A stretch of 52,955 nucleotides of DNA from Sneathiellales bacterium. GTDB taxonomy: Bacteria; Pseudomonadota; Alphaproteobacteria; JANQFL01. Where the stretch lies: NCBI GenBank assembly GCA_028277845.1, contig JANQFL010000010.1:1-52955 (forward strand), in the 5' to 3' direction. The translations under genes and the position numbers were made by a program. The notes under the pieces are model-generated. The model saw nothing but the letters and a program-made list of their open reading frames with translations, was not told the origin of the DNA and made no database searches. Each line of letters opens with the position of its first letter. The stretch's first letter is position 1. This document shows positions 18,218-22,737 of the stretch, piece after piece.

Positions 18218-19318
18218 CTATTCCGGCGAACGTTCGTGCTCTTCGATCAATCGCAGCGTGTTGAGGTATTCCGGATCCTTGCGCCAACGGGCGATGACCT
18301 TCCGGGCGGATGCTTCGGTCAGTTCGTCATAAAAGGTCGCCGCACCGGAAAGCTCGTTGGGATCGACCTGTTTGTCACCCAGCCGGCCTTGCCGGACCTT
18401 GATGAAGATGGTGATGAAGCTGTGCTTGTCGAGGCCGATGGACTTGCACGCCATGGCCAGGCCTTCGCCGCCGGATTCGAACAGGATGCGCCGCACCAGG
18501 CGCGACCGTAGGCCGGTCAACTGACCGAACAAATCCACGAACAAGGGAATCTTGCCGGCATTGAGGTATCCGAGAAGCAAGTGCGGATTGGTGTTCGCCT
18601 TGGTTTCGTCGGCGTCGTGCCGGTCATCGAATATGTCGTGCACGGCGTCATCGATGGTGTCGTCGAGTTCCGTGGGATCGATTTCGAACCGTTGCACGAT
18701 GTGTTCACGCAACGCGGCGGAGACGACCCAATAGAGTTTCTTGACCAGGTGCTGCGGCAAGTCATAGCGCCGGGCCAAGGGTTCATGGAACCGTTCGATA
18801 TGGTGCGATTCGTCGACCAGCCGTTCCAGCGTATGGTCGGCGATGCAGGCGGTTTCGTTGTCCAGCAGCTTGGTGATGACGTCTTCGTTGCCGGTTTCCA
18901 CCAGGGCATGGGACACGTCTTCGCTGAGGCGCGGGCGCATGGCGATGGCCAGCTGATGTTCCATGGTCCGGTACTGAATGATTTCCAACAGGTCCGGGTC
19001 CTGCAACGCCTGGCAGTTGACCAGGATCGGAAAGGCGACGTCGATGTGTTCGTTGGCCAAAGTACGGATCAGGTCGCCCGGTACCTTGTCGTCGCCGGCC
19101 AGGTGTTCCGCCACGGCCTGGCGGACGGTGACCTCGACCTCGTGGATCAGCGACTTGATGATGTTGCACATTTGGGTGCGATCGCCCGGCGTCAGGCGTT
19201 GATTGTCGCCGGTATACAGATCGGTGATCGCGGTAATCAGTTCGGCGCGGCTTTCCTTCGACTTGTCGCGCGCCAAGCCTATCAGTTCCTGATATCCCCA
19301 AGACAACGCTTCCGACAC
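18218..19318 (-). CDS. DUF2336 family protein
   Basis: 366-aa, mainly helical protein typical of Alphaproteobacteria. It has the DUF2336 flavour: an Ala-poor HEAT-like set of helices with DLIRTLANEHIDVAFPILVNCQAL, EIIQYRTMEHQLAIAMRP and LSEDVSHALVETGNEDVITKLLDNETACI. The start was placed at GTG 19318 (SEALSWGYQE) because AAGGGG precedes it. A longer frame from a TTG at 19465 exists, but its extra residues look non-coding and contain a hairpin. Function unknown; some members are implicated in cell envelope or signalling roles. Confidence 0.8.
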   Translation of the reverse strand: MSEALSWGYQELIGLARDKSKESRAELITAITDLYTGDNQRLTPGDRTQMCNIIKSLIHEVEVTVRQAVAEHLAGDDKVPGDLIRTLANEHIDVAFPILVNCQALQDPDLLEIIQYRTMEHQLAIAMRPRLSEDVSHALVETGNEDVITKLLDNETACIADHTLERLVDESHHIERFHEPLARRYDLPQHLVKKLYWVVSAALREHIVQRFEIDPTELDDTIDDAVHDIFDDRHDADETKANTNPHLLLGYLNAGKIPLFVDLFGQLTGLRSRLVRRILFESGGEGLAMACKSIGLDKHSFITIFIKVRQGRLGDKQVDPNELSGAATFYDELTEASARKVIARWRKDPEYLNTLRLIEEHERSPE

Positions 19319-19457
19319 GGCGGGCCCCTTCAACTCGTCACATGCAATTTCCGCCGGGGCGGGAGCCCTTCGGCTCCTTACCCGCAGCGGGAGTATGCTC
19401 ACGGCATGGTTGCCAGGGGGTAAAAATTCGTGGTTAACGCTACGAAAAACTGCCTGC

Positions 19458-20447
19458 TCAGGCAATAAAACGGGACCTCAGGGCCGGTACTGGCACACGG
19501 CACATGGACCGGCGCCCGAACAGGCGGTAGCGGGTGCGGGCGACCAGGGAATAAATGGCGTTTTGCAAGGGCTTCGGCAGGACGACGAAGACGCCGAACA
19601 GGTTCCAAGGGAAGGTCATGCGGCGGACCAGGCGCAGAACCGCCGCGGCGCCGGCATGGACCTGGCCGTTCTCGATCAACACCATGTGAGAGAAATCATC
19701 CGGGTCACGTCCATGACGGGCCAGGAGTGCCCGTCCGGTGTCCGATTGAATGGCGCAGTAGCGGACGGACCCGCTGAGATCCCGCTTGGCATAGAACGCC
19801 ATGGAGCCGCAACACAGATTGCACATGCCGTCGAACAACAATATGGCATCCGGTTTCATGTTGCTGTCCACGGAGTCCGGTTGCGGCGCCAGGTCGTTGT
19901 CGGTGGTGCCGGTCAGTTTGCCCCGGTAGCGCACGAGCCGTCCCAATACGGGCAGCCGGATGTCCACATCGAAGCAGAACCGGTCGCATTCGGCCCATTC
20001 CTCGGCCTGCACGGTGGGCATCACGATGCGCGGCACCGGGATACCGAAGGCGTGCATGCCGCGCGAAGTCACCAGGATACGCTCGTCTCGGCGCGTTACG
20101 TCCAGGTGGAAAGCCAACGGCCCGAAGCGTTCGGTGACAGCCCGCGGTTTCTCGTCTCCGCCGCGGTCATGGGTGGAGGCGAACTGACGGGCACCGAACC
20201 GGCGTACCCAGATCTCGCGCCCGTCTTCGCGGATCACCGTAAGGTGAACCGGAACATTGTCTCCCGGGTCCGGAAAGCTGAAGAGCCACGCGGTCAGGCG
20301 CGCCAGCGGGTTGCGTGCCGGCGTGACCGTACTGGTACCGACGGCCGTGTAGCGCGTGCCTTTACCGTGGGCTCGCCGGACCGGTTCCGGCAAACGGGCG
20401 AAGCCTGCGCCCAAGGCGTCTGCGTAAACCATCGAACGTGACGTCAT
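19458..20447 (-). CDS. DUF4166 domain fused to a DCC thiol-disulfide oxidoreductase domain
   Basis: 329-aa protein with two domains. The first (about residues 1-190) is DUF4166: ADALGAGFARLPEPVRRAHG, WVRRFGARQFAST, GIPVPRIVMP, VLGRLVRYRGKL. The second (about 210-320) is a DCC/DUF393 domain with the redox motif LLFDGMCNLCC (Cys-x2-Cys). DUF4166 is often fused to saccharopine-dehydrogenase-like enzymes in other bacteria; here that enzyme is a separate, overlapping upstream gene. ATG at 20447 overlaps the upstream gene by 86 nt; ATG at 20432 is also possible. Confidence 0.82.
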   Translation of the reverse strand: MTSRSMVYADALGAGFARLPEPVRRAHGKGTRYTAVGTSTVTPARNPLARLTAWLFSFPDPGDNVPVHLTVIREDGREIWVRRFGARQFASTHDRGGDEKPRAVTERFGPLAFHLDVTRRDERILVTSRGMHAFGIPVPRIVMPTVQAEEWAECDRFCFDVDIRLPVLGRLVRYRGKLTGTTDNDLAPQPDSVDSNMKPDAILLFDGMCNLCCGSMAFYAKRDLSGSVRYCAIQSDTGRALLARHGRDPDDFSHMVLIENGQVHAGAAAVLRLVRRMTFPWNLFGVFVVLPKPLQNAIYSLVARTRYRLFGRRSMCRVPVPALRSRFIA

Positions 20448-21618
20448 GATGTGTGCTCCCGCCATTTGAGGCCAGAATGTCGCCCTCCGTCGTGCGGCAG
20501 GCGATGTGGAAGTCTTGGGCTTCCTGCATGAATTCCTCGACCGTGAACAATTCGACACACGGTTTGGCGCCGATGTCCTTGAGCTTTCCGTCGGCGATCT
20601 TGCGCGCCAGGATGACGGCGGGCAGGCACGGGACCCAGGGGCCTTCCCCGGCCCAGGCCAGCAGGGTCCAGCTGCGTGTCACCGGCAGGCCGTCCGGGTC
20701 GTCGCCCGACACCGTGACCGCCATGCCGCCGACATCCGTTCCGGCGGTTTTGAACAGACCCTCGCCACGGTGAAGCAGGCGGTGGAAAGGCCGCAGCGAA
20801 TCGATCACGCCGTAGCGCACCAGCCAGGAGCAGGCCCACAGTCCCAGATGGACGGCCGGCAATTCGTGTCCGGCATAAAACGTCACCCGTTCGACATCGG
20901 GGTAACGGATCGGCAGCAAGGCAATGTCGGGCACGTCGCAGGCCGACATCCAACGCCCGCCAAGGGAACCCAGGCCCGGCGCCGCCAGCGTGCGGCGGCG
21001 CAAGTCCTGCCAGCCGTGGGTGTAGGTCCACCGCCCCTTGTCGAGGCGCGGGATAGCGCGGCCCGTGTAGCTGAGAATGCCGGAGAACACCGCGGGGCCG
21101 CGGTCGGCCCGGTTGCCGGGCAGGATGGCCATCTCGATGCGGCGGACGGTCTCCAACTCCCTGGCCAGGTCGGCGATGACGGCGGTGGACAGGCCGGGCA
21201 CGCTGCTGACGCCGCTGACGGCCAATACGCCGGCGTCCTGGGCCTCTCCGTCCAGCAGCGAGAATCCATCGACGAAATCCCGGCCGTCCGCCAGATCGAT
21301 GTAATGCACCCCTGCGTCGAAGCAGATACGCGCCACGTCGTAGTCCTGGCCCTGGAACGGGCCGCATGTGTGAATCACCAGTTTGGCATCTGATTGCCTG
21401 ATGGCGGCGGCCAAATCTCCGGGCACATCGACGCCCAAGGGCATGACATCGGCGTCGGGCAGATCGGTCCGCAGGCGGTCGACGAAGGTGCTGGCCTTGA
21501 TCAACGAGCGCCCGGCGACAATGACTTTCATATCCTTATCCGCGGCCAACCGGCGGCTGATGCGGCCACCAAAGACCCCGTAACCACCGAGAACCAGGAT
21601 TGGAAACGATTTGCTCAT
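20362..21618 (-). CDS. Saccharopine dehydrogenase-like NAD(P)-dependent oxidoreductase
   Basis: 418-aa protein with an N-terminal Rossmann nucleotide-binding site (ILVLGGYGVFGGRISRRLA) and the family's middle section CGPFQGQDYDVARICFDAGVHYIDLADGRDF. The reaction is unknown; related proteins reduce or oxidise diverse substrates. The ATG follows GGAGGTGTCG. Its start overlaps the DUF2269 stop by 4 nt, and its own 3' end overlaps the DUF4166-DCC gene by about 86 nt. The three genes form one minus-strand operon with an operator at 22120-22139. Confidence 0.88.
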   Translation of the reverse strand: MSKSFPILVLGGYGVFGGRISRRLAADKDMKVIVAGRSLIKASTFVDRLRTDLPDADVMPLGVDVPGDLAAAIRQSDAKLVIHTCGPFQGQDYDVARICFDAGVHYIDLADGRDFVDGFSLLDGEAQDAGVLAVSGVSSVPGLSTAVIADLARELETVRRIEMAILPGNRADRGPAVFSGILSYTGRAIPRLDKGRWTYTHGWQDLRRRTLAAPGLGSLGGRWMSACDVPDIALLPIRYPDVERVTFYAGHELPAVHLGLWACSWLVRYGVIDSLRPFHRLLHRGEGLFKTAGTDVGGMAVTVSGDDPDGLPVTRSWTLLAWAGEGPWVPCLPAVILARKIADGKLKDIGAKPCVELFTVEEFMQEAQDFHIACRTTEGDILASNGGSTHHDVTFDGLRRRLGRRLRPFAGTGPASPR

Positions 21619-22097
21619 AGCGACACCTCCGGTTTGGCGATCATTAAGTGAAAGACGATCAGCATGGCGATGAAGGCCGGACAGCCGAGCCAGAACCAGA
21701 TCCGGGCCAGGCGGCGGTAATCCGACGAGAGGGGACGGCCGCGCAGGGCCGCGGCACGGGCCAGCCGCGCCATGCGGATCTGCAGCCAGACCACGGGCAG
21801 CCAGCAGGCGCCGGCAAGGGCGTAGAGGCCGACGGCGAGGGCAAGCCAGCCGGCCTCAAGCGTCCAGCCGGCGAAACGGGCGAGGAGGCAACCCGTCACC
21901 GGCTGGAGCAGCGCTGCCGGGGCGGTAAACAGCCAGTCGGCCAGGACAACGTTTTCCGCGACATCCGCAACCGTGGAACTGACGTTGGTGCGGTTGGCCC
22001 GCCACATCTGAAACGCGGTGCCGAGGCCCGTGCCGAACAGCACCACCGCGCCGACGATGTGGGCGAATTTGATGGCGTCGTAGTTCCAGTCGATCAT
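21615..22097 (-). CDS. DUF2269 family integral membrane protein
   Basis: 160-aa membrane protein with four hydrophobic segments. The DUF2269 pattern is clear: IKFAHIVGAVVLFGTGLGTAFQMWRA, then WLFTAPAALLQPVTGCLL and the C-terminal RIWFWLGCPAFIAMLIVFHLM. The histidine in KFAHIVG and charged edges fit the family. It is the first gene of the operon with the saccharopine-dehydrogenase-like and DUF4166-DCC genes. A palindromic operator lies 23-42 bp before the start codon. Function unknown. Confidence 0.85.
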   Translation of the reverse strand: MIDWNYDAIKFAHIVGAVVLFGTGLGTAFQMWRANRTNVSSTVADVAENVVLADWLFTAPAALLQPVTGCLLARFAGWTLEAGWLALAVGLYALAGACWLPVVWLQIRMARLARAAALRGRPLSSDYRRLARIWFWLGCPAFIAMLIVFHLMIAKPEVSL

Positions 22098-22119
22098 GTT
22101 GACATCCGTATTGACAGTA

Positions 22120-22139
22120 ATTTCAGTAGAAACTGAAAT
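22120..22139. promoter_or_regulatory. Operator palindrome before the DUF2269 operon
   Basis: ATTTCAGT-AGAA-ACTGAAAT: perfect 8-bp arms with a 4-bp spacer. The same arms occur at 22691-22710 before the GbsR/MarR-type regulator gene. The site sits just upstream of the DUF2269 start, where a repressor could block transcription. The matching pair strongly suggests that the product of 22156-22680 binds both. Confidence 0.8.
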
Positions 22140-22155
22140 AACGCGACAAAATTTT

Positions 22156-22680
22156 TTACTTCTTCACGAAGCGGGCAACCTTGTCTCCCAGTTTCATCAA
22201 GGCAATCAACGTCGGTTTCGGTACTCTGATGATCTTGCCGTGCCAATTGTTCAGGGTTTCGATGAATTCGAGCATGCGGGCGATGCGCTGCTTGATTTCA
22301 TCGGGTGTTTCCGTGTCATTGTCGGCATCCAGGACACATTGGCGCAGCATGGTGAGAGTCGGGTCGATCTCGCGCCGTTTGCGCTCCTCGACGATGGTCA
22401 TCAGCATCGTCCACAGGTCCTTTTCCGACTCGAAATGGTCTCGCCGGTCGCCCAGCACGTGCGTCGCGCGCACCAGGTTCCAGCCTTGCAGTTCGCGCAG
22501 ACTCATGGACACGTTGGATCGGGCAATCGACAGGCTTTCGGCGATTTCGTCGGCCGGCAGCGGTTTCGGTGAAAGATAGAGCAGGGCGTGAATTTGGGCG
22601 ACGGACCGGTTGACGCCCCACCGGGTGCCCATTTCGCCCCAGTGCAGAATGTAACGTTCAACGGTCGGTGTGATTTTCAT
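22156..22680 (-). CDS. GbsR/MarR-family transcriptional regulator
   Basis: 174-aa regulator. The N-terminal winged helix has an HTH around residues 45-65 (LPADEIAESLSIARSNVSMSLRELQ) and a wing with RATHVLGDRRDHFE. The start HWGEMGTRWGVNRSVAQIHALLYL is characteristic of the GbsR branch. The C-terminal helices likely form the dimer. A consensus promoter overlaps a palindrome identical in its arms to one before the downstream operon, so autoregulation and control of the DUF2269 operon are inferred. The inducer is unknown. Confidence 0.9.
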   Translation of the reverse strand: MKITPTVERYILHWGEMGTRWGVNRSVAQIHALLYLSPKPLPADEIAESLSIARSNVSMSLRELQGWNLVRATHVLGDRRDHFESEKDLWTMLMTIVEERKRREIDPTLTMLRQCVLDADNDTETPDEIKQRIARMLEFIETLNNWHGKIIRVPKPTLIALMKLGDKVARFVKK

Positions 22681-22690
22681 AATTTCACAA

Positions 22691-22710
22691 ATTTCAGTCT
22701 ATACTGAAAT
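22691..22710. promoter_or_regulatory. Operator palindrome at the regulator's own promoter
   Basis: ATTTCAGT-CTAT-ACTGAAAT: 8-bp arms identical to those at 22120-22139, with a different 4-bp spacer. It overlaps the -10 box and the likely transcription start of the GbsR/MarR gene, the position expected for an autorepressor. Confidence 0.82.
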
Positions 22711-22737
22711 TATAGAAATAAACGGAACGCAAGTCAA
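22709..22737 (-). promoter_or_regulatory. Sigma-70 promoter of the GbsR/MarR regulator
   Basis: On the minus strand TTGACT (22737-22732), a 17-bp spacer and a perfect TATAAT (22714-22709) are read. The expected start is near 22702, giving a leader of about 22 nt. The -10 box shares bases with the operator at 22691-22710. Confidence 0.8.

Follow-up and report, generated by a model that had tools for sequence, protein, structure and literature searches.

GbsR-type proteins belong to the MarR superfamily, and the closest described system to the one reported here is that of CydE. For CydE of Alishewanella sp. WH16-1, a GbsR-type repressor of cytochrome bd, a footprint on TATTTCAGAAATTTCTGAAAGTTCA was obtained in 2018, and the inducer is reported as sulfate (PMC6096048). 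A second footprinted CydE site is GGGATGCGCATATGCAAAT (PMC6096048). CioR of Chromobacterium violaceum, likewise a MarR repressor of GbsR type, shuts off its own operon by binding the promoter directly, and its target, a cyanide-insensitive cytochrome bd, is unlike the operon studied here (PMC11837568). GbsR and OpcR of Bacillus subtilis (PMC7396694) and OpuAR of B. infantis (PMC6207618) share family and domain layout with the regulator described below, whereas they control osmostress targets and use an aromatic cage to sense their inducers, choline and glycine betaine. B. subtilis GbsR acts as a roadblock downstream of the start point, on an AT-rich inverted repeat whose half-sites are separated by 4 bp (PMC7396694). 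Each of the four GbsR-type regulators that had been characterised by 2018 acts as a repressor, and the MarR superfamily also includes activators (PMC6207618). In a survey of 179 GbsR-type proteins, about 80 belong to neither the osmostress nor the cytochrome bd group, and the aromatic ligand cage is reported absent from non-osmostress members (PMC6207618). EctR1 and CosR are likewise MarR-type repressors of a proteobacterial metabolic operon, yet they control ectoine and betaine genes (review PMC7876524).

The window, which is the whole 52,955-nt stretch of DNA that was analysed, contains two palindromes of the form ATTTCAGT-N4-ACTGAAAT, at 22120-22139 and 22691-22710. As the first-pass annotation had described, their 8-bp arms are identical. 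The spacers are AGAA and CTAT, respectively, on the + strand. Operator 1 ends 10 nt upstream of the ATG of a regulator gene and would cover its predicted start point, and operator 2 lies 16 nt past the regulator stop codon and 22 nt upstream of the ATG of a DUF2269 gene. The features of the locus are as follows.

22732 to 22737, − strand: -35 box TTGACT of the regulator promoter; relatives show a TTGACA-like peak 25 bp before the operator
22709 to 22714, − strand: -10 box TATAAT, a promoter match with a 2-bp overlap with operator 1
22682 to 22719, − strand: operator 1 with outer half-sites, ATTTCTAT-A-ATTTCAGT-ATAG-ACTGAAAT-T-TGTGAAAT; outer half-sites conserved in relatives
22691 to 22710, no strand: core palindrome of operator 1, before the regulator; equivalent site in 79 of 82 loci
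22156 to 22680, − strand: 174-aa regulator of GbsR/MarR type with a winged helix and a helical dimerisation part (Pfam MarR_2)
22120 to 22139, no strand: core palindrome of operator 2, before the operon; 55 of 82 loci have a counterpart
22111 to 22118, − strand: partial right outer half-site of operator 2, ACTGTCAA, with the conserved G kept; G in 98% of 55 relatives
21615 to 22097, − strand: DUF2269 integral membrane protein, first operon gene (Pfam PF10027, E 1.3e-56)
20362 to 21618, − strand: saccharopine-dehydrogenase-like NAD(P)-binding oxidoreductase (Pfam PF03435, E 2.9e-11)
19458 to 20558 (ORF limits; true start probably about 20447), − strand: DUF4166 fused to a DCC1-like thiol-disulfide oxidoreductase (Pfam PF13761, PF04134)

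Both sites are rare. The window contains just these two at up to three mismatches, and shuffled sequences average 0.09. A search of the 5.39-Mb assembly, as the first-pass annotation had suggested, returned these two sites only at zero to two mismatches, not the many unrelated copies it had named as evidence against its proposal. Six more places appear at three mismatches, and a base-composition estimate gives about 1e-4 exact sites per genome.

The regulator matches Pfam MarR_2 (E 8e-8), and its AlphaFold2 model has a pLDDT of 93.5. Its best solved relative is MJ223 of M. jannaschii (1ku9; sequence E 1e-14, fold E 9e-10), which is also the literature's modelling template for GbsR. The protein thus shows the GbsR-family layout of an N-terminal winged helix-turn-helix and a C-terminal dimerisation domain with 1ku9 as best match, and both window palindromes are inverted repeats with 4-bp spacing, as in the operator of B. 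subtilis GbsR. Against the curated CudC model (the NCBIfam choline regulator) the regulator scores 55.6 bits, below the cut-off of 218. The Pfam content of the window operon is of another kind than the glycine betaine synthesis and Opu transport genes of the osmostress group. In the compared regulators, W14, W21, W67, F83 and W90 are conserved aromatics.

Scanning one genome per species yielded 80 relatives with 54-73% identity from alpha-, beta- and gammaproteobacteria, and 82 regulator loci were analysed, the window included. In 79 of the 82 loci, the 200 bp upstream of the regulator contain an equivalent of operator 1 that agrees at 13 or more of the 16 arm positions, perfectly so in 50 loci, and base-shuffled flanks reach 13 or more in 24 of 4100 trials. 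The three loci with no good operator 1 are L027, L028 and L069. As in the window, the regulator gene is followed by a second site with at least 14 of 16 positions in 55 of the 82 loci, and a good second site is absent from the other 27. The consensus over the loci is ATTTCTGT-N4-ACAGAAAT, or ATTTC[T/A]GT-N4-AC[T/A]GAAAT-like, of which the window carries the symmetric A/T variant. At least 95% of 85 relatives share the recognition helix A53 R54 S55 N56 V57 S58, and the operator arms are conserved too. We considered whether this helix reads the alternation of A and T at the sixth arm position; as the helix is invariant, with only four symmetric CAG cases to compare, the position appears degenerate.

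The sites also travel with the regulator. The exact pattern ATTTCWGTNNNNACWGAAAT occurs in 17 of 385 genomes of the class, 15 of which encode the regulator, versus 23 of the 368 others (Fisher p = 5e-15), and the reversed pattern occurs in two of the 385. In 14 of these 15 genomes the site is directly beside the regulator; in the exception, G243, it precedes a fatty-acid desaturase gene. Among 44 genomes chosen for having the regulator, 39 carry the exact pattern and none carries the reversed one. At the level of sequence, these comparisons establish the sites, their conservation and their link to the regulator.

On the − strand, the regulator promoter reads TTGACT (22737-22732), 17 nt, TATAAT (22714-22709), and agrees with the consensus at 11 of 12 positions. 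The overlap of operator 1 with the -10 box, which had been noted before, is real and amounts to 2 bp only, the last two of TATAAT. The palindrome of the proposed 20-bp operator stands, but 20 bp is not its full extent, because a conserved outer half-site flanks the palindrome and the operator is larger. Specifically, in 79 loci operator 1 has a ATTTCAGT-like outer half-site one base to the left and a ACTGAAAT-like one one base to the right, which match on average at 5.2 and 5.8 of eight positions, respectively, compared with about 2 to 3.5 at the offsets next to them. The outer G on the right is invariant (79/79), even with the start codon 25-111 nt away. This G had been considered as part of a ribosome-binding site, an assignment that we rejected because the G is kept at those distances and also at operator 2. 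Perhaps two dimers occupy operator 1. In the 55 loci with operator 2, the flank of that site carries the right outer half-site only, its left side being a T-run with no outer half-site. No clear sigma-70 promoter was found at operator 2, nor a TTGACA at the register seen at operator 1; the best candidate for an operon promoter element, unproven as such, is a weak TTG-like hexamer that adjoins operator 2 on its left.

The T-run just left of operator 2 (22148-22151, − strand) shows T at 95%, 95% and 85% at three positions in the 55 relative loci. In some loci (e.g. L029, L033, L042 and L071) it follows a GC hairpin and resembles an intrinsic terminator for the regulator gene, and in others it is a AAAAAATTTT tract.

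Downstream of operator 2, Pfam confirms the names first given to the operon genes, DUF2269, saccharopine-dehydrogenase-like (Sacchrp_dh_NADP) and DUF4166/DCC (DUF4166 plus DCC1-like). At least one homologue of the operon proteins lies nearby in 60 of 80 loci. Among 111 downstream proteins of 42 loci there are at least 27 DUF4166, 24 epimerase, 15 DCC1-like, 11 DoxX_3, nine DUF1731, eight DUF2269, seven saccharopine dehydrogenase and three fatty-acid desaturase matches, all minimum counts because some gene calls in high-GC loci are rough. To test this link independently, we looked at the genes adjoining seven exact sites that lie apart from the regulator in genomes that encode it, and five of the seven precede operon gene families (DUF4166, epimerase, DUF2269, saccharopine-dehydrogenase-like, desaturase). 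Of the other two, the one in L168 falls within a gene and the one in L169 is described below. The site in L104 precedes DUF4166 and saccharopine dehydrogenase genes; that in L166 precedes epimerase-DoxX_3 and then DUF2269; that in L167 precedes a small membrane protein and then epimerase-DUF1731 and DUF4166; and that in L165 precedes an epimerase-like fragment. In L105 (G243:C2, 1501-1520), the genome's sole exact operator lies before the fatty-acid desaturase gene, which has a TTGACT -35 box, and the regulator is on another contig; this site hints at membrane-lipid chemistry. Exact sites within coding sequence were taken as chance (a phage-like gene in L093, a murC-like gene in L102 and a repeat-rich gene in L168). 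We found no relevant literature on the motif letters or on DUF4166/DUF2269 regulation.

A further exact symmetric site with the outer G, in L169 (G410:C186, 2052-2071), precedes a 287-aa protein of no assigned family in a regulator-bearing genome, and it is not explained by the regulon as described.

The CydE site ATTTCAGA-AATT-TCTGAAAG has the same length as the window operator and 13 of 16 equal arm positions, and both window sites contain the CydE-type ATTTCAG-N6-CTGAAA exactly. The second CydE site, GGGATGCGCATATGCAAAT, is unlike the palindrome and counts against the repressor-operator reading given below. CydE further resembles the window branch in being of GbsR type, in having its gene ahead of the target operon and, under the reading proposed below, in autorepression. 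In contrast, CydE targets cydAB, whereas the window branch is associated with DUF4166, epimerase, DUF2269, DCC and related genes, and the second operator between regulator and operon is particular to the window branch. No cydA was found beside the window regulator or its branch. Relatives with 43-48% identity sit before cydA, mostly with similar sites, and one of them, L009, has exactly the arms of the window. In the tree, a 100/100 branch splits these cyd-linked regulators from the DUF4166/epimerase-linked ones, among which the window regulator falls. The cyd-linked regulators form a sister branch, to which CydE would belong by shared gene context and site. The sites of this branch had been called little known; the branch and its regulon are new, but the operator type is not, CydE having been footprinted in 2018 (PMC6096048).

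Taken together, phylogenetic footprinting over the 82 loci, co-occurrence over 385 genomes, the unlinked sites and the DNase footprint of CydE on a near-identical sequence support the proposed set of repressor, operator and operon. Very probably, a dimeric GbsR-family repressor of a CydE-sister branch binds ATTTC(A/T)GT-N4-AC(A/T)GAAAT twice, represses itself and the operon, and is released by a ligand or redox signal. On operator 1, the regulator would cover the -10 end and the start point and so repress its own promoter. On operator 2, it would block the DUF2269 - saccharopine-dehydrogenase-like - DUF4166/DCC operon, by promoter occlusion or as a roadblock to read-through. A small ligand or redox signal would then release the regulator and induce both transcripts together. 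In this scheme, binding to this kind of sequence is taken from the published experiments on CydE, and repression from those on CydE and CioR, whereas the sites, their conservation, the outer half-sites and the link to the regulator and the gene set come from sequence comparison. That the regulator binds directly in this organism, which sign the regulation has, what induces it and a membrane-lipid/redox role are inferred. The 27 loci with no good second site, the three with no good operator 1 and the lack of a clear sigma-70 promoter at operator 2 count against this reading.

Alternatively, the regulator could bind both sites but repress only itself, acting on the operon as a ligand-dependent activator. 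This would fit an operator 2 that has no clear sigma-70 promoter and whose flank differs from that of operator 1 (a T-run, no left outer half-site), and activators do occur in the MarR superfamily (PMC6207618). We nevertheless regard it as quite unlikely, given that four of four GbsR-type regulators characterised by 2018 repress (PMC6207618) and that operator 2 is just 22 nt from the first ATG, which puts the start point in or before operator 2, so that blocking suits the site better than activation. Very improbable is that the palindromes are the target of another regulator in the genome and not of the adjacent GbsR-type protein: exact sites co-occur with and adjoin the regulator across genomes, and the related CydE was footprinted on the same arms. 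A terminator hairpin of the regulator gene in place of a protein site would explain why operator 2 follows the stop codon by 16 nt and adjoins a conserved T-run. However, the T-run lies upstream of the palindrome and not after it, and operator 2 was rejected as a terminator on account of this wrong side. Moreover, its arms equal those of operator 1, its sequence is conserved over 55 loci beyond mere pairing and together with the outer half-site, and a separate hairpin precedes the T-run in some loci only, all of which makes a terminator hardly tenable.

The divergent + strand genes (22808 onwards) might also be controlled from operator 1, which, as the first-pass annotation had noted, lies between them and the regulator. 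Operator 1 is about 100 bp ahead of the first divergent ORF, and weak promoter-like + strand matches overlap it, yet these matches reach only 9 of 12 positions, and homologues of the tested divergent genes lie beside the regulator in none of 85 other loci. Such control is therefore improbable: with no conserved neighbourhood, the divergent genes are probably outside the regulon, and their inclusion is not borne out by any conserved link with the regulator.

Under the preferred reading, in which one repressor acts on both operators, the system adds a new branch, with its regulon, to a known type of repressor and is not a new kind of system, because CydE was footprinted in 2018 and the cyd-linked regulators form a sister branch. 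It is an evenly balanced proposition that this is an undescribed proteobacterial regulon parallel to cytochrome bd/CydE, with a multi-half-site operator (perhaps for two dimers), a CydE-sister repressor and a signal-induced set for membrane-lipid/redox modification. This set would comprise DUF4166, NAD epimerase-DoxX_3/DUF1731, DUF2269, a saccharopine-dehydrogenase-like reductase, a DCC thiol oxidoreductase and a fatty-acid desaturase, with enzyme functions and signal being conjectural. As the arrangement recurs in dozens of other proteobacteria, it makes an uncharacterised gene network testable. One repressor type with a defined operator would tie DUF4166, DUF2269, DoxX_3-fused epimerases, DUF1731 and DCC into one conserved regulon, and membership in it offers a handle on the function of these widespread families. 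Two branches of GbsR-type repressors would share one operator code, and an operator that extends beyond the 20-bp palindrome is relevant to the assembly of such repressors on DNA.

Within the operon, the saccharopine-dehydrogenase-like frame overlaps the start of DUF4166-DCC in another frame by about 30-85 bp (20362-20447, − strand); the overlap is either real or due to a frameshift that lengthens the saccharopine-dehydrogenase-like frame. Directly downstream on the same strand, 18218-19465 encodes a DUF2336 protein with a sub-cut-off SpbR match, which is probably unrelated because it is absent beside the regulator in relatives. In the regulator itself, Cys115 (22336-22338, − strand) is kept in 87% of the compared regulators and absent from the cyd-linked L008-L011. 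Since the operon encodes a DCC thiol oxidoreductase, Cys115 is a possible redox- or metal-sensing residue.
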